Source: a virus. From it: a stretch of 23,952 bases of DNA. Shown piece after piece: positions 1,302-11,494 of this stretch. Positions within the stretch are counted from its first letter, which is position 1. The number at the start of each line of letters is the position of its first letter. The notes beneath the pieces were generated by a model, which was given only the letters and a program-made list of their open reading frames with translations, did no database searches and was not told the DNA's origin. The DNA lies in the IMG/VR virus record IMGVR_UViG_3300032116_001301, positions 1 through 23,952 of that record; one strand, written 5' to 3'. The position numbers and the translations under genes were made by a program.

Positions 1302-2150
1302 ATGGAAACAGGAATTTATGCGGGCATCAGTAACGACGCCTATCACGGCGGGCCCGGTGTCTCGAAAAGCGGCCTAGACCTGGTGGCGCGGTCGCCGCTG
1401 CACTACTGGTCGCGGTATCTCGACCCGAACCGCGAGGAGCGGGAACCCACGCCGGCGATGCGCCTGGGAACGGCCATCCACACGGCCGTGCTGGAGCCCG
1501 GCGAATTTGCCAAGCGCCACCACGTCGCGCCGGCGGTGGACCGCCGCACGAAGGACGGGAAAGCGACCTGGGAAGCGGCAGTCGATGCAGCTGCGGCCGC
1601 CGGCGCCGAACTGATCTCGAACGACGACGCGCTGACATGCATGCGCATTGCCGAACAGGTGCGCCAGCACCCGACGGCGCGCAAGGTGTTCGCCACCGGC
1701 CAGGCTGAAATGTCCTGTTACTGGACGGACGCGGAAACCGGCCTTCTGTGCAAGTGCCGGCCGGACTGGCTGTCCATGCCGCTGGTGGTGGACCTGAAGT
1801 CCACCGACGACGCCAGCGCTGTCGGGTTCCAGCGGTCGGCCTGGACTTATCGCTACTGGGTCCAGGCGGCCTGGTACATGGACGGCGTCGAACAGGCGAC
1901 CGGCCAGCGCCCTGATGCGTTCGTGTTCGCAGCTTTTGAAAAGGCCGCGCCCTATGCCTGCGCGTTCTACTTCGCCGACGACGCCATGATAGAAATGGGC
2001 CGCGCTGAATACCGCAAGCAGCTGCGCGTGCTGGCCGACTGTATCCAGTCGGATACATGGCCGGGCTACACCACCGACGTGATGCCGCTGGGGCTGCCGG
2101 CCTGGGCGTTGGCGGCCGCCGCGAATGACAACCAGCGGGGGGTGGTATGA
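1302..2150 (+). CDS. RecE-like PD-(D/E)XK phage exonuclease
   Basis: A 282-residue nuclease of the exodeoxyribonuclease VIII/RecE type (PDDEXK superfamily). Such enzymes resect double-stranded ends to leave 3' single strands for annealing. Visible signatures are LGTAIHTAVLEP (residues 55-66, with the motif I His at 60), the active-site pair RPDW (D155) and VVDLKS (D164, K166), and a QxxxY motif, Q188-Y192. The ORF can be extended to a TTG at 1206, but ATG 1302 has a good AAAGGA ribosome site six bases upstream and gives the usual family N-terminus. The stop overlaps the next gene (ATGA). The neighbouring RecA-fold ATPase supports a phage recombination module. Family confidence is high; exonuclease polarity is inferred from the family. 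Confidence 0.88.
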   Translation: METGIYAGISNDAYHGGPGVSKSGLDLVARSPLHYWSRYLDPNREEREPTPAMRLGTAIHTAVLEPGEFAKRHHVAPAVDRRTKDGKATWEAAVDAAAAAGAELISNDDALTCMRIAEQVRQHPTARKVFATGQAEMSCYWTDAETGLLCKCRPDWLSMPLVVDLKSTDDASAVGFQRSAWTYRYWVQAAWYMDGVEQATGQRPDAFVFAAFEKAAPYACAFYFADDAMIEMGRAEYRKQLRVLADCIQSDTWPGYTTDVMPLGLPAWALAAAANDNQRGVV

Positions 2151-2476
2151 AAGCGGCAGCCCTCATCCTGGCGCTGACCTCAACCTGCGCCCAGGCGCAG
2201 TTCTTGGACGGCAATGCCCTGCTGGCCCGGCTCAATGGCGACCAGCAGTCCCAGTCGTTCGCGCTGGGCTACATCGCCGGCGCCTTCGACAATGCCACCG
2301 GCGTGAAAATCTGCCCGCCTGCAGGCATCAGCGTCGGCCAGGTTCGAGACATGACGCGCCTGGCGCTGGAGGGGCTGCCGGCCGAACGGCATGCACCGGC
2401 CGACATTTTCGTCGTCGCTGTCGGCATTCGCGCCTGGCCGTGCAAGCCGCCGGCTCAACCAGGCAGGTCCCTTTAA
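2147..2476 (+). CDS. Secreted Rap1a/Tai-family immunity-like protein
   Basis: A 109-residue protein with a Sec signal peptide (positive Lys2, hydrophobic core, AQA cleavage site at residue 17). The mature part resembles Rap1a/Tai immunity proteins, periplasmic inhibitors of type VI amidase effectors. It has FALGYIAGAFD (38-48), CPPAGISVGQ (56-65), an HAPAD segment (82-86) and a final WPC (97-99). The two cysteines, C56 and C99, match the disulfide usual in this family. The start overlaps the exonuclease stop (ATGA), so the two are co-translated. It is odd in a DNA-recombination operon: it may protect the lysogen, act in superinfection exclusion, or have another periplasmic role. The family assignment rests on motif resemblance, not a search. 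Confidence 0.72.
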   Translation: MKAAALILALTSTCAQAQFLDGNALLARLNGDQQSQSFALGYIAGAFDNATGVKICPPAGISVGQVRDMTRLALEGLPAERHAPADIFVVAVGIRAWPCKPPAQPGRSL

Positions 2477-2495: not shown

Positions 2496-3497
2496 ATGAA
2501 CGAATTCCAAATCCGCGAAGCGCAGCGCCAAGGCGCCCGGCTGCTGATCCAGTTGTCCGGCGTGTCCGGCAGCGGCAAGACGTACAGTGCGCTGCAGCTG
2601 GCCTATGGCCTGGCTGGGCAGCGCGCCGACAAGGTGGTGATGATCGACACCGAAAACCGGCGCGGGTCGCTTTACGCCGACAGTCTGCCTGGTAAGGACA
2701 AATTCCGCATTATCGACTTCTACGCTCCATTTTCCCCGGCCCGGTATGTCCAGGCGATTGAAGCGGCCTGCAATGCCGGCGCCGAGGTTATCGTAATCGA
2801 CAGCGTTACACATGAATGGGAAAGCGAGGGCGGCTGCGAATGGATGGCGAACCAGACGCGGTTTCCTGACTGGAAGCGCGCCAAGGCGGAACACAAGCGG
2901 TTCATGACTTACATGCTGCAGTGCCCCGCGCACATCATTGCCTGCACCCGCGCCCGCGAGAAGGTGGATTTCAGCGACCCGAAAAATCCGCGCCCGCTTG
3001 GCATTCAGCCAATCCAAGAAAAGAATTTTTCGTATGAGGCAACCGTCAGCCTGATGATGCACGACCAAGGTCAACGTCAGGATGTGCTTAAGTGCCCCGC
3101 TGAACTTCAGGCTGTACTTGGGCGTGGGCAGGGGTATCTGGGTGCTAGCGATGGCCTAGCGCTGCGAAATTGGGTGGATGGTGGCGCGAGTGTTGACCCA
3201 GCCATCGAACACCATCGCGGCATTCTGCTCAACACGACAGAACAGGGTCTAAAGGCGCTCCAGGCCGCTTGGCTGGCGACGCCCGCGAACGTGCGCAAGG
3301 AACTAGGCGAATCGTTCAAGGACCAACTGAAGGCTGCCGCCAAGGAATATGAAAATGTTCGGGCGCCACAGCCGGCGGCTGTGCCCTCATCCATACGCGA
3401 CCTGAATTCTGGTGATAGGAATGAACACCATATGGACGGGAATGATTCCCAAGGTGTAGAACAGAACAAAATCAGAACGACGGGGGATGTATTTTGA
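2496..3497 (+). CDS. RecA-fold phage ATPase (AAA_24/Sak4-like)
   Basis: A 333-residue P-loop ATPase. Walker A is GVSGSGKT (residues 22-29), VIVIDSVTHEW (98-108) is the Walker B strand, MIDTENRRGS (49-58) follows the first strand, and HIIACTRAREK (146-156) looks like a RecA-type sensor strand. About 230 residues form the ATPase. The remaining 100 are a low-complexity, polar tail. The family is common in temperate siphophages next to an exonuclease, and some members (Sak4) act as single-strand annealing or RecA-like proteins. No Beta, Erf or RecT gene is visible here, so this is the best candidate for the annealing partner. The gene follows the Rap1a-like gene by 19 bases and its stop overlaps the TTG start of the next gene. 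Confidence 0.82.
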   Translation: MNEFQIREAQRQGARLLIQLSGVSGSGKTYSALQLAYGLAGQRADKVVMIDTENRRGSLYADSLPGKDKFRIIDFYAPFSPARYVQAIEAACNAGAEVIVIDSVTHEWESEGGCEWMANQTRFPDWKRAKAEHKRFMTYMLQCPAHIIACTRAREKVDFSDPKNPRPLGIQPIQEKNFSYEATVSLMMHDQGQRQDVLKCPAELQAVLGRGQGYLGASDGLALRNWVDGGASVDPAIEHHRGILLNTTEQGLKALQAAWLATPANVRKELGESFKDQLKAAAKEYENVRAPQPAAVPSSIRDLNSGDRNEHHMDGNDSQGVEQNKIRTTGDVF

Positions 3498-3694
3498 TCG
3501 AAACAGCAATTGAATACCTGACTCCATCTGAATTGGTTTCCCGGTATCGCGGCACCATTACCATTCGGACGCTGGCGAACTGGCGCAGCACCGGCGAAGG
3601 TCCGCGCTACACCAAAATCGGCGGGCGCGTTCTGTACCCAGTCGACTGCGTGATCGACTGGGAACGCAAGCGCACACTGGGTGAACCCGCGTGA
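3494..3694 (+). CDS. Excisionase-like MerR/HTH_17 DNA-binding protein
   Basis: A 66-residue protein with a winged-helix layout: TPSELVSRY (10-18), then TIRTLANWRSTGEGPRYTKI (23-42), then RVLYPVDCVIDW (46-57). This is the HTH_17/AlpA-Xis pattern, in which a helix-turn-helix is followed by a wing with Gly-Pro-x-Tyr and a Tyr-Pro turn. The only plausible start is TTG 3494, overlapping the ATPase stop, with a GGGGG stretch about eight bases upstream. It is the last gene before the terminator and attachment site and lies next to the integrase, so recombination directionality factor is the natural reading. A transcriptional regulator is the alternative. Confidence 0.72.
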   Translation: MIETAIEYLTPSELVSRYRGTITIRTLANWRSTGEGPRYTKIGGRVLYPVDCVIDWERKRTLGEPA

Positions 3695-3702
3695 CGAACT
3701 GA

Positions 3703-3729
3703 CAAACCATACCCCAAACCATACCCCAG
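3703..3729 (+). repeat. 27-bp direct repeat, left arm (integrase arm-site candidate)
   Basis: It consists of C, two tandem copies of AAACCATACCCC, then AG. An identical 27-bp copy lies at 3950-3976. The pair flanks the tRNA-derived core, as expected for P and P' arm-type integrase binding sites. The last six bases also form the left side of the terminator stem. Confidence 0.75.
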
Positions 3730-3754
3730 CCGATTTGGCTGGGGTTTTTGTTTT
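3724..3754 (+). terminator. Rho-independent terminator after the recombination/excision operon
   Basis: A perfect 8-bp stem CCCCAGCC/GGCTGGGG with a GATTT loop, followed by TTTTTGTTTT. It ends rightward transcription after the excisionase gene and before the attachment core, so integrase needs its own promoter or read-through. There is no T-run on the other strand. Confidence 0.92.
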
Positions 3755-3776
3755 AGCCTAAGTGCTTGGATTTGTT

Positions 3777-3823
3777 TGGTGAGCCCGGCCGGTGTCGAAC
3801 CGGCGACCCTCTGATTAAAAGTC
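3777..3823 (-). other. attP: attP core: 3' half of a tRNA-Lys(UUU) gene
   Basis: On the minus strand this reads as the 3' part of a tRNA. It has anticodon loop CTTTTAA (3821-3815, anticodon TTT), a 3' anticodon stem, a perfect T-arm GCCGG-TTCGACA-CCGGC, acceptor strand GGGCTCA and an encoded CCA (3779-3777). The match stops just upstream of the anticodon loop: the bases there would not pair with the 3' anticodon stem beyond GA, and no D-arm follows. It is therefore not a functional tRNA. Many tyrosine integrases use such a tRNA 3' end as the identity segment shared by attP and attB. The flanking arm repeats and the adjacent int and xis genes support this. The exact crossover point cannot be seen. 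Confidence 0.88.
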
Positions 3824-3840
3824 GGGAAATGACGGTTACC

Positions 3841-3860
3841 GGCAGTTCCCGGCAGTTCCC
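3841..3860 (+). repeat. Tandem 10-bp repeat in the attP arm
   Basis: Two adjacent copies of GGCAGTTCCC between the attP core and int. Tandem short repeats at this place are typical of excisionase or integrase arm binding, but the sequence alone cannot say which protein binds. Confidence 0.6.
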
Positions 3861-3873
3861 GGTGTCAGCGCGT

Positions 3874-3896
3874 AAGTCACGAAAAACAGGTGACTT
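3874..3896. promoter_or_regulatory. Inverted repeat upstream of int
   Basis: AAGTCAC and GTGACTT form a perfect 7-bp inverted repeat around a 9-base AT-rich spacer. It lies about 90 bases before the int start and could be an operator or a bent protein-binding site. It has no T-run and is not a terminator. Confidence 0.45.
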
Positions 3897-3919
3897 TCTG
3901 ACAAGGTTCGGTCTAAATG

Positions 3920-3934
3920 TAGCACCCGGTGCTA
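3920..3934. promoter_or_regulatory. Short palindrome in the int leader
   Basis: TAGCAC-CCG-GTGCTA is a 6-bp perfect inverted repeat with a 3-base centre, 50 bases before the int ATG. It is a possible operator for a dimeric regulator of int. I could not find a convincing -35/-10 pair near it. Confidence 0.35.
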
Positions 3935-3949
3935 GTCTTTCACTTTGAT

Positions 3950-3976
3950 CAAACCATACCCCAAACCATACCCCAG
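3950..3976 (+). repeat. 27-bp direct repeat, right arm (integrase arm-site candidate)
   Basis: Identical over 27 bases to 3703-3729, 247 bp away, with the same double AAACCATACCCC unit. It ends ten bases before the int ATG, so integrase bound here could block its own translation start or promoter (autoregulation, inferred). Confidence 0.75.
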
Positions 3977-3985
3977 GAACAGCCA

Positions 3986-5272
3986 ATGCTCACCGACAGA
4001 CAAATCCAGGCCGCACTGAAAACCTGCACCAGCGAGGTGGTGCTAAACGATGGCGCCGGCGGCAAGGGTGGCGGGTCGCTGGTCCTGGTCGTGCGTCGGC
4101 GCGCCGATGGCTGCACGGCGAACTGGTCCGGCCAGTGGTGGGACGACGGCAAGCGCCGGCGCAAGCCGCTCGGGCCTTATCCCAGCGTGGGACTAGCAGC
4201 AGCGCGCCAGCTGTATGCCGACCAGGTGCGCGACGTCCTGGCGGCCGGCAGGAACCCGCTGGTGGCCGTTCTGACTGCCGACAAACCGACGGTGGCGCGG
4301 CTGTTCACGGCTTATTGCGACCGCATGCTGGCCGACGGCAAGTCCTCCGAACCGGAATACAGGCGCTGCCTGGAAGCGGCTGCGGCGGCCTTCGGGGCGA
4401 ACCGGCTGGCCGGCGACATATTGCCGGACGACGTGTCGGCCTATCTCGCCAAGGTGTTCGCCCGCGCTCGGTCCCAGGCTGACCACGAACGGGCCTACTT
4501 GCACGCCGCATTCCAGTGGGGGCTGCGGGCGGCGCACGACTACCGGCAGGACCTGCGCGTGGACTGGGGGGTGCGACAGAACCCGGTTGGCGCCATCCCG
4601 AAGGACACAGCCGCCAGCCGGCCGCGTGACAGGGCGCTGACGCCGGATGAACTGGCCGCCGTGTGGCACGGCCTGGCCGGCAGCCGCATGGGGCTGGAAG
4701 CGGCCACCTGCGTGCGCATGCTGATCCTGACCGGCCAACGGGTGCGGGAAGTGCTGCGCATGGACCGCCGCCACATTGACCTGGCGCGGATGCTGTGGAC
4801 AATGCCCGCCATGTCCACCAAGGGCGGCCTACAGGGCAAGCGCGCGACGGCGCACGTCATCCCGCTGCCGGAACTGGCGCGGCCGGTGCTGCAGCAGCTG
4901 ATGGCCGCCAACAAGTCGGGCCCGCTGTTCGCTAACCGCAAGGGGGAACCGATGGCCGACAACAGCATTCGCCAGGCGCTGGTCGACCTGCAGACCGACC
5001 TGGCGATGGACCCGTTCCAGCCGCGTGACCTGCGCCGAACCTGGAAAACACGGACTGCCGATGCAGGAATTGCAAGGTTCGAGCGTGACCTAATCCAGCA
5101 GCACCAGCAGGGCGACACCGGGTCCAAGCATTACGATATGGCGACCTATACGCCGCAGCTGCGCGCCGCGATGGACACCTGGAACGACTGGCTGGAGCAG
5201 TTAATCGCGGGAAAACAGTCGCGCGCGGCGCTCACGCATGCGGGCGCACTCCAGGCACAGGCGCAGGCGTAG
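3986..5272 (+). CDS. int: Tyrosine-type site-specific integrase
   Basis: A 428-residue tyrosine recombinase that would join attP to a host tRNA-Lys gene. The catalytic domain shows TGQRVREV (R252), a box II written RDLRRT (R347 where His is usual, R350), H373, and HYD with nucleophile Y383 ten residues later. The N-terminal part has a DUF4102-like arm domain (GxYPSVGLAAAR near residue 65) and a core-binding SAM-like domain (about 95-205). The frame extends to a GTG at 3929, but that would translate the arm repeat; ATG 3986 has AGGAA six bases upstream. The 3' end overlaps the convergent TraR-like gene by 72 bases. The family call is secure. The His-to-Arg change occurs in some phage integrases as I recall them, so activity is not ruled out. 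Confidence 0.93.
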   Translation: MLTDRQIQAALKTCTSEVVLNDGAGGKGGGSLVLVVRRRADGCTANWSGQWWDDGKRRRKPLGPYPSVGLAAARQLYADQVRDVLAAGRNPLVAVLTADKPTVARLFTAYCDRMLADGKSSEPEYRRCLEAAAAAFGANRLAGDILPDDVSAYLAKVFARARSQADHERAYLHAAFQWGLRAAHDYRQDLRVDWGVRQNPVGAIPKDTAASRPRDRALTPDELAAVWHGLAGSRMGLEAATCVRMLILTGQRVREVLRMDRRHIDLARMLWTMPAMSTKGGLQGKRATAHVIPLPELARPVLQQLMAANKSGPLFANRKGEPMADNSIRQALVDLQTDLAMDPFQPRDLRRTWKTRTADAGIARFERDLIQQHQQGDTGSKHYDMATYTPQLRAAMDTWNDWLEQLIAGKQSRAALTHAGALQAQAQA

Positions 5273-9548: not shown

Positions 9549-10574
9549 CTATTGCATCGCCCACGCGATCTCGTTCCCAGTGGCCCCTGGTAGCGTTGCT
9601 GGGTCAGCGTATTTTGTCCCAAAACCTGAACCCGACCAAGGATATGCCGTGATATACGGCGACGCTGTATGCGCGACTGCGATGGTTAAATTATCAGGGC
9701 TAAATTTAACACCAAAGCCGGCAAGGCCGGGCAGTGTCGCCGGATCAGTAAACTTTGTCCCAAAGCCCGAACCAGACCAAGGATATGCACTGATGTAGGG
9801 TGTAGTGTCGTGCGCAATGGCTATTGCTGACCCGTCCGGGCTAAATGCAACTCCGCGACCACTGCCCGCTGGTAGTGTTGATGGGTTTGCGTACTTCGCG
9901 CCAAAACCTGACCCAGACCAAGGATATGCGGAAACGAAAGGGCTCACAGCATGCGCAACTGCGATTGCTGAATTGTCAGGACTGAACGCGACGCCGTTGC
10001 CGGTTCCGGTAGGCAGCGTCGCAGGATCGGCGAACTTTGTTCCAAAGCCGGACCCAGACCAAGGATATGCGGTAATAAATGGCGTGGTGGCATGCGCAAC
10101 CGCGATCTGCGAACCGTTTGCACTAAACGAAACTCTATTACCCGTGTTTGCCGGAAGCGTCGCCGGATCAGTAAACTTTGTCCCAAAGCCTGAACCAGAC
10201 CAGGGATATGCAGTAATAAATGGCGTGGTCGAATGCGCAACCGCTATCGCTGAAGCGTCCGGGCTAAATGCGACTCCTCGCCCAGTGCCCGCCGGCAGCG
10301 TCGCCGGGTTTGCGAACTTTGTTCCAAAGCCTGAACCCGACCAAGGATATGCCGTGATAAATGGCGTGGTGAAATGCGCAACCGCTATCGCTGAAGCGTC
10401 CGGGCTAAATGCAACTCCATTACCGGCACCCGTAGGAAGCGTGGAGGGGTTGTTATACCTTGTGCCAAAATTGTCGGCCCAAGGATAAACCCGGACATAC
10501 GGCGAATTAGATGTCGCAATGGCGACATCTAAACTTTTGCCGCCAAGACTCGCCATCCTTGTAAGCATGCTCAT
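9549..10574 (-). CDS. Seven-bladed beta-propeller tail-associated protein (receptor-binding candidate)
   Basis: A 341-residue protein built of seven repeats of about 47 residues. Each repeat follows VAFSPDxSAIAVAH, TTPFITAYPWSGSGFGTKF, then xxPATLPxGTGxG. The SPDG-like and IAVAH strands are those of WD40/YVTN-type propellers. The C-terminal strand EIAWAMQ can close the ring with the first, incomplete blade (the usual 'velcro'). There is no signal peptide. ATG 10574 overlaps the stop of the tail fibre gene (ATGA), and accessory genes follow. Phages often place the receptor-binding tip after J and the fibre, so a host-binding role is likely but inferred. The repeats are very similar in DNA, which suggests recent amplification or gene conversion. 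Confidence 0.85.
   Translation of the reverse strand: MSMLTRMASLGGKSLDVAIATSNSPYVRVYPWADNFGTRYNNPSTLPTGAGNGVAFSPDASAIAVAHFTTPFITAYPWSGSGFGTKFANPATLPAGTGRGVAFSPDASAIAVAHSTTPFITAYPWSGSGFGTKFTDPATLPANTGNRVSFSANGSQIAVAHATTPFITAYPWSGSGFGTKFADPATLPTGTGNGVAFSPDNSAIAVAHAVSPFVSAYPWSGSGFGAKYANPSTLPAGSGRGVAFSPDGSAIAIAHDTTPYISAYPWSGSGFGTKFTDPATLPGLAGFGVKFSPDNLTIAVAHTASPYITAYPWSGSGFGTKYADPATLPGATGNEIAWAMQ
9570..10541 (-). repeat. 141-bp tandem repeats encoding propeller blades
   Basis: The plus-strand word GGATATGC starts at 9640, 9781, 9922, 10063, 10204 and 10345, exactly 141 bp apart each time. The first, degenerate unit follows with GGATA at 10483 (138 bp). The period is 47 codons, one blade each. 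Divergence between units is low, especially at the YPWSGSGFG segment. Confidence 0.92.
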
Positions 10575-11494
10575 CTGATGATTTTCCCGTAGATAAACGC
10601 GCCAGCGTCTCGGGTCCATAACATGACAAAATCGGTTCCAGAGGTTCTAAGTGTTACGCCGTTATTAGCGAAATTTGTCACCACCGAACCGTCTGACTTG
10701 ACCCAATAAATTGTGGGCCATGTGATGGTGGCGGCGCCAAGGTTGACGCCCTCAATTAACAATTCCCCTAGATTCCCAGACGCCGGCCAGTTTGTTATTG
10801 ATAGCGTTTGCGCTCCGGTGTTTGGTGTCCAACGCTGATATGAACCATTCGTGAAGTCTAGGGCGTTGTTGGTGGTGCTATTGAACCACACCCAGGAAGT
10901 ATCTTTAAACGACTTCTCAATCAATGTCTGCGGGGCGGCCAATAGTGCAACCGTGTCGCTCGTAACTGCTGGCAGGGTGTGCTGCTGTGTGCTGGACGGC
11001 CCTAGCTTGGCGCTGATTATTGGCGCCGTGGCGTTGGTAAAACTGGCCTGGCCCGACAGTGTGTGATTGCCGGAGAACGTGCCGCTTTTAGCTCCACCCG
11101 AATAGGTCTTGTTTGTAAACGTCTGGGTGGCCGCCAATAGCGCCAATGTGTCGCTGGTAACAGCCGGGACGGTGTGCTGCTGCCCGGCTGCGGGTCCGAT
11201 CTTGGCGCTGATAATGGGGCTCGTGGCGTTGCTGAAAGTAGCGGCCCCACTGAATGTCGAAGCGCCGGCGACGGAAAGTGCCGGGAACGCGAAAGTGGCA
11301 ACGGCGTCAACCCACGCGGTTCCGTTCCATTTTTCAAATCGGCCGTTCGTGGTGTTTAGCCGCTTGGCATTTGTAGGCGTGTTTGTTGGCGTGACACCTT
11401 CAAACCACACAGCGACATCAGTGTCGCGGTCTTTAACTTCAGTAACGAAGTTGGTGTAAGTGCTGGTGAGAATCGGATTGGACCAGTTTGCCAT
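10571..11494 (-). CDS. Tail fibre / tail tip-attached protein
   Basis: A 307-residue protein. The N-terminus (MANWSNPILTSTYTNFVTEV, then a DRDTDVAVWF segment and RFEKWNGTAWV at 52-62) resembles the virion-binding domain of fibres placed after gpJ. The middle holds two 65-residue repeats starting NATSPIIS (89) and NATAPIIS (154), of the beta-rich Ala/Thr/Ser type. The C-terminal 100 residues (NLGELLIEGVNLGAATITWP and onward) form a domain seen on many phage tail proteins. The gene begins next to the J stop and its own stop overlaps the propeller start, so J, fibre and propeller form one translational unit. Confidence 0.78.
   Translation of the reverse strand: MANWSNPILTSTYTNFVTEVKDRDTDVAVWFEGVTPTNTPTNAKRLNTTNGRFEKWNGTAWVDAVATFAFPALSVAGASTFSGAATFSNATSPIISAKIGPAAGQQHTVPAVTSDTLALLAATQTFTNKTYSGGAKSGTFSGNHTLSGQASFTNATAPIISAKLGPSSTQQHTLPAVTSDTVALLAAPQTLIEKSFKDTSWVWFNSTTNNALDFTNGSYQRWTPNTGAQTLSITNWPASGNLGELLIEGVNLGAATITWPTIYWVKSDGSVVTNFANNGVTLRTSGTDFVMLWTRDAGAFIYGKIIR
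10913..11230 (-). repeat. Internal duplication in the tail fibre gene (195-bp offset)
   Basis: Two copies of a segment coding for NAT(S/A)PIISAK(I/L)GP, QQHT(V/L)PAVTSDT and LLAA-QT are offset by 195 bp (65 codons). In DNA the word GGTGTGCTGCTG starts at 10976 and 11171. Confidence 0.85.

Follow-up and report, generated by a model that had tools for sequence, protein, structure and literature searches.

A probable tRNA-Lys(UUU) attachment site in a phage genome fragment and the frame it shares with relatives of its integrase

Genes and features at the locus

The window, the whole stretch of DNA analysed here, is the 23,952-bp linear-class IMG/VR record IMGVR_UViG_3300032116_001301. Its termini lie inside a helicase gene and a capsid gene, and it therefore represents part of the genome of a free phage. 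A reading made earlier from the letters alone (the sequence-only reading) had proposed a virion, circular or permuted phage as the source rather than a prophage; the free phage stands, and a linear-class, fragmentary record does not show circularity. An operon on the plus strand encodes an exonuclease VIII-type recombination exonuclease (1206–2150; PHROG 412, E = 1e-104), a RecA-like AAA ATPase (2496–3497; Pfam AAA_24, PHROG 1366) and a 66-aa HTH protein (3494–3694). A Rap1a-immunity-like protein (2147–2476, plus strand; PF18602, E = 4e-13) is also encoded within it. The 66-aa protein is a probable excisionase (Xis), or recombination directionality factor: its Pfam HTH_17 match (E = 1.3e-5) falls marginally below the cut-off, its PDB match is to RdfS of ICEMlSymR7A (E = 1.3e-4), it shares 54% identity with a Bas97 (HeidiAbel) protein annotated as excisionase and transcriptional regulator, and a homologue adjoins attP in 11 relatives. 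The integrase gene (int, 3986–5272, plus strand) lies to the right of the candidate attP, followed by genes for lysozyme, lambda-like tail proteins and an HK97-type capsid. The HTH gene and int border the site on its left and right sides, respectively, and phage genes continue beyond both, as had been described. Further along, a 356-aa propeller-like protein (9549–10619, minus strand) consists of about six near-identical repeats (TPFITAYPWSGSGFGTKFxDPATLP..GVAFSPDxSAIAVAH) and is without a Pfam match.

The integrase is a 428-aa tyrosine recombinase with an arm-binding N-terminus and a catalytic domain (Pfam Arm-DNA-bind_3 and Phage_integrase; PHROG 1, integrase). Residues R252, K279, R350, H373 and Y383 are invariant in alignment A1, while the HxxR box carries an arginine in place of the histidine (RDLRR). 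Catalytic residues and an arm-binding N-terminus are accordingly found together with arm-type sites flanking a core, as in a lambda-type attP.

The core occupies 47 bp on the minus strand (3777–3823) and corresponds to the 3′ half of a tRNA-Lys(UUU), CCA included. It comprises the anticodon loop CTTTTAA (3815–3821), a T stem paired at 5/5 positions, the T loop TTCGACA, the acceptor strand CGGGCTC, a discriminator A and the CCA end. As expected for half a tRNA, ARAGORN calls no complete tRNA in the window, and Rfam likewise returns no RNA family or complete tRNA there. The anticodon heptamer is the predicted crossover region, based on anticodon-region crossover in integrated relatives.

Two identical 27-bp direct repeats, P (3703–3729) and P′ (3950–3976), frame this half tRNA as the sequence-only reading had noted, and each is indeed a double AAACCATACCCC with a 12-bp period (3704–3715 and 3716–3727; 3951–3962 and 3963–3974; plus strand). 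The AAACCATACCCC 12-mer occurs exactly four times in the 23,952 bases, always at this locus, and the combined arm score is 42, compared with a maximum of 25 among 60 shuffles. No further occurrence of the exact arm pair was found in IMG/VR outside this record. The P′ repeat runs up to the AGGA ribosome-binding site (3975–3978), leaving 9 bp to the int ATG, a detail that the sequence-only reading had missed. The arrangement supports the repeats as putative Int arm sites.

Several smaller elements lie between the arms. Three 10-bp-phased repeats, TTACC/TTCCC/TTCCC, occupy 3836–3860 on the plus strand and include a tandem GGCAGTTCCC at 3841–3860. Left of the core, a degenerate IHF-like site with two mismatches (3759–3771, minus strand) stands at a position conserved in the family, and the inner P site overlaps the stem of an intrinsic terminator of the exonuclease-RecA-xis operon (3723–3754, plus strand; −20.1 kcal/mol, z = −3.5); neither is mentioned in the sequence-only reading. 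A 15-bp palindrome, TAGCACCCGGTGCTA (3920–3934; TAGCACC and GGTGCTA around a central C), is located upstream of P′. It is possibly an operator and is absent from the same place in aligned relatives. A sigma-70 scan of the window returned no int promoter.

The attachment-site frame of the integrase family

Relatives of the integrase were retrieved by an alignment query of genome and viral collections, in which a single-protein query gave no matches; no Jilinvirus-type integrase was found among E. coli complete genomes. The protein is 43–47% identical to the integrases of PPpW-3, Persinger, Mano, PT1, HeidiAbel, KA2-1 and others, and at most 56% identical to those of metagenomic phages. A minus-strand tRNA 3′ part lies upstream of int in 55 of the 60 relatives with an integrase, and its type is Lys-UUU, Lys-CUU, Arg-UCU, Arg-ACG, Gly-UCC or His-GUG. 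Four arm sites, arranged 2 + 2 with a 12-bp period, were found at 42 of 53 non-redundant loci and in none of 60 shuffled controls. P′ lies 128–133 bp from the anticodon heptamer at 26 of 31 distinct loci (128 bp in the window). In four relatives (L106, L109, L126 and L011) the stretch upstream of int shows no recognisable core and no full set of arms, their attP having likely decayed or relocated.

The arm sequences themselves are lineage-specific (AACCNTACCC, AACAGCACCC, GTGCACCC, GGGCACCC, ACCGATACCA, GGTTCAACC and others). With catalytic-domain distance removed, arm-site distance correlates with the distance between integrase N-terminal domains (partial r = 0.33, p = 0.001); the converse correlation with catalytic-domain distance, N-terminal domain removed, is −0.003. 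Since arm divergence tracks the N-terminal and not the catalytic domain, the repeats are best regarded as Int arm sites.

Most of the accessory elements can also be placed in this frame. The family array has the form [AGT]TCA[CTG] at +14, +24, +34 and occasionally +44, counted from the anticodon loop, and pairs of the motif at 10-bp spacing were observed 41 times against 0.14 expected. The window array stands at exactly +14/+24/+34, although its TTCCC departs from the family TCAC, which counts against the explanation favoured here. Directionality factors recognise direct repeats spaced by one helical turn (PMC7498355), and on a 40-bp oligonucleotide from attP RdfS assembles as a tetramer (PMC11963761); by analogy, the array is probably the excisionase site. 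An RdfS-related protein and helically phased candidate sites are thus found at one att locus. The sequence-only reading had placed the tandem GGCAGTTCCC and an inverted repeat within the arm layout. Both are present, but the tandem is most likely part of the directionality-factor array rather than an Int arm site. Matches to the IHF consensus are enriched at fixed positions, about −56 left of the core and +51 to its right; a site without mismatch stands in the interval from the P arm to the core in 11 of 42 relatives and in none of the shuffles. The right-hand site is not recognisable in the window. A terminator stem shared with the P arm recurs at 7 of 42 loci, five of them clear and those of L093, L099, L104 and L014 comparable to the window, and so is recurrent, not general. 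Before P′, a −35-like hexamer with at most one mismatch is present at 13 of 42 loci against about 10% expected, a weak enrichment.

Integrated relatives and two tRNA solutions

Prophages with this type of integrase had been predicted to lie beside tRNA-Lys(UUU). One relative, L015, is found there and another, L013, at tRNA-Arg(UCU); no prophage of the exact phage was found. Comparison of attL and attR, which had been suggested, places the crossover of integrated relatives in the anticodon region. L015 is an 8.8-kb element in an alphaproteobacterial MAG that encodes a large AAA/primase-like protein. The same double arm lies at both ends, accompanied on the left by a 3′ core and int and on the right by the core, where L015 abuts a second, integrase-bearing element that ends at a complete tRNA-Lys(UUU), the two forming a tandem (G001:C73:77584-110671).

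In Microvirga alba BT350, contig C7 (40,528 bp; L013 and L212) has exactly 77 bp in common with contig C23 (L199) at each end, and C23 holds an intact tRNA-Arg(UCU). C7 is therefore a prophage in the integrated state, and C23 carries the corresponding empty site, so that attL, attR and the empty attB are all present in one assembly. Phage and host cores share only about 14 bp, which leaves the host tRNA without its 3′ half, and in the attR stretch ARAGORN recognises the phage tRNA-Arg(UCU) alone. A search of this one genome revealed no intact tRNA-Arg(UCU) besides the host and phage copies; the broken host gene is, in this genome, single-copy. The whole phage tRNA follows the captured 5′ half of the host gene on the same strand, about 165 bp downstream of the host anticodon, and could consequently be read from the host promoter. 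The prophage disrupts the only tRNA-Arg(UCU) found and carries a complete replacement, which fits tRNA-dependent lysogeny. A second element with GAGGG-type repeats, and apparently another integrase, is found in the same Microvirga tRNA-Arg (G003:C23:125636-149441).

Besides the Microvirga prophage, where it is evident from attR, a short anticodon core accompanied by a complete tRNA with the matching anticodon was found at 11 further loci (L003, L005, L006–L010, L120, L124, L125 and L128): those of PPpW-3, Persinger, PT1, HeidiAbel, MQ-4, Alux-21, Mano and four metagenomic phages. The complete tRNA is on the same strand, either outside the P arm (Arg) or between the P arm and the core (Lys). 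Mano had been considered for a third class in which the complete tRNA is the core; it has a second, short core at the standard P′ distance and so belongs to the tRNA-carrying class. The window, with its 47-bp 3′ half and no complete tRNA, is canonical. In the integrase tree it pairs with L093 (98/93) within a canonical clade, and strongly supported branches force at least two changes between the canonical and tRNA-carrying states.

The tRNA type of the window, allowing at most one mismatch at fixed positions, was detected in 59 of 385 alphaproteobacterial genomes and in 0 of 143 gammaproteobacterial genomes. Its core is hence of an alphaproteobacterial type, and the actual host may be found in that class. 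Neither the exact 47-bp core nor the exact T stem was found in the sampled genomes, where the nearest match was 44/47.

Proposed mechanism, alternatives and known systems

In the proposed mechanism, the N-terminal domain of Int would occupy the four arm sites (P, 3704–3727; P′, 3951–3974) and its catalytic domain the core, with IHF bending the DNA between arm and core. Strand exchange, with cleavage points predicted within 3815–3821, would join attP to a host tRNA-Lys(UUU) gene whose 3′ half is identical. As the phage supplies the 3′ half with its CCA, one junction would rebuild the tRNA and the other would keep the displaced 3′ half beside P′ and int. Excision probably involves head-to-tail loading of the small HTH protein onto the 3836–3860 array. 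Because P′ abuts the start of int, bound Int probably also represses its own gene.

That 3703–3976 is an intact attP, as the sequence-only reading had proposed, and belongs to a lambda-type tyrosine integrase is assigned a probability of roughly 0.93. Counting against it are the failure to find a prophage of the exact phage or, in sampled genomes, the exact 47-bp core, the TTCCC of the array, the two mismatches of the IHF-like site with no recognisable partner at +51, and the negative scan for an int promoter. Tandem arrays do occur at tRNA-Lys, as on the L015 contig, where a single core marks the border of two elements; the record could by analogy be a tandem-prophage junction or a hybrid of two elements, with a composite site instead of a virion attP. 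This is improbable, given that the 27-bp arms are identical, that the order xis-attP-int is common to the window, L093, L094, L099 and L104, and that host genes are absent around the site. All 19 Lys-targeting relatives tested have a single core, mostly phage-internal and with arms on both sides.

With their overlap of both the xis terminator and the ribosome-binding site of int, the repeats could regulate transcription, so that the AAACCATACCCC pairs might instead be operators of a repressor or replication initiator beside an incidental tRNA half. Against this, the arms stand at near-fixed distances around the core in dozens of phages with differing tRNA targets, covary with the Int N-terminus more than the catalytic domain can account for, and are split between the two ends in integrated relatives, which makes an operator function in place of attachment very improbable. 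The core could also be a decayed phage tRNA gene beside int, since tRNA genes are common in phages and complete ones occur here in the tRNA-carrying relatives. Yet the 3′ half is present alone and ends at the anticodon stem, the place of Int crossover in relatives, and a tRNA 3′ part lies here in nearly all integrase-bearing relatives; of the explanations considered, simple decay is the hardest to credit. The reading as an intact attP is therefore retained.

The 283-bp attP of the IntS/RdfS system of ICEMlSymR7A (PMC11963761) likewise has arm-type sites and a small filament-forming HTH directionality factor. It belongs to an ICE and not to a phage, has five arm sites of another sequence (TGKTGGTATC) and keeps rdfS in a conjugation operon; a consensus RdfS motif was not found there, in contrast to the fixed 10-bp array of the window family. 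The KplE1 IntS/TorI attL (PMC2951348) shares a tRNA target and arm sites overlapping the int promoter region. Its target is argW, and its negative autoregulation has been demonstrated, whereas for the window, where P′ reaches the int ribosome-binding site in the manner of KplE1 IntS and other autoregulated integrases, repression of int is a prediction. The Pseudomonas phages PPpW-3 and Persinger, the Jilinvirus phages HeidiAbel and PT1 and the Achromobacter phage Mano share the integrase family, the four-arm plan and the anticodon-P′ distance. Their core is limited to the anticodon stem-loop, and each has a complete tRNA of its own (Arg-UCU; Lys-UUU in Mano), whereas the window carries a 3′ half that would rebuild the host tRNA. 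Such tRNA-carrying relatives resemble mycobacteriophage Fionnbharth (PMC10865867), which also combines a short common core, a phage tRNA of the same isotype and arms flanking the core. Lysogeny of this type is known from Actinobacteria and has been suggested for Lj965.

Taken alone, the window attP is an ordinary, complete site of a known kind that can be read site by site, and its value lies in the family frame it helps define: arms in a 2 + 2 arrangement, a 10-bp array, crossover in the anticodon region and P′ about 130 bp away. The naturally divergent set suits decoding of Int arm-site specificity. It is likely that a single integrase family uses this near-rigid frame with two tRNA solutions and has switched between them at least twice, which would extend candidate tRNA-dependent lysogeny to Pseudomonadota phages and the Iiscvirinae. 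Guerrero-Bustamante and Hatfull (PMC10865867) showed tRNA-dependent lysogeny in mycobacteriophages and left open how it relates to canonical systems and how frequent it is beyond actinobacteriophages. Here the two kinds of attachment site share a single conserved frame, and both questions become testable through the integrase tree, the Microvirga prophage and the isolated phages. The family also offers one possible reason why lysogeny has been elusive in the Iiscvirinae, whose lifestyle has been called enigmatic (PMC11990801).
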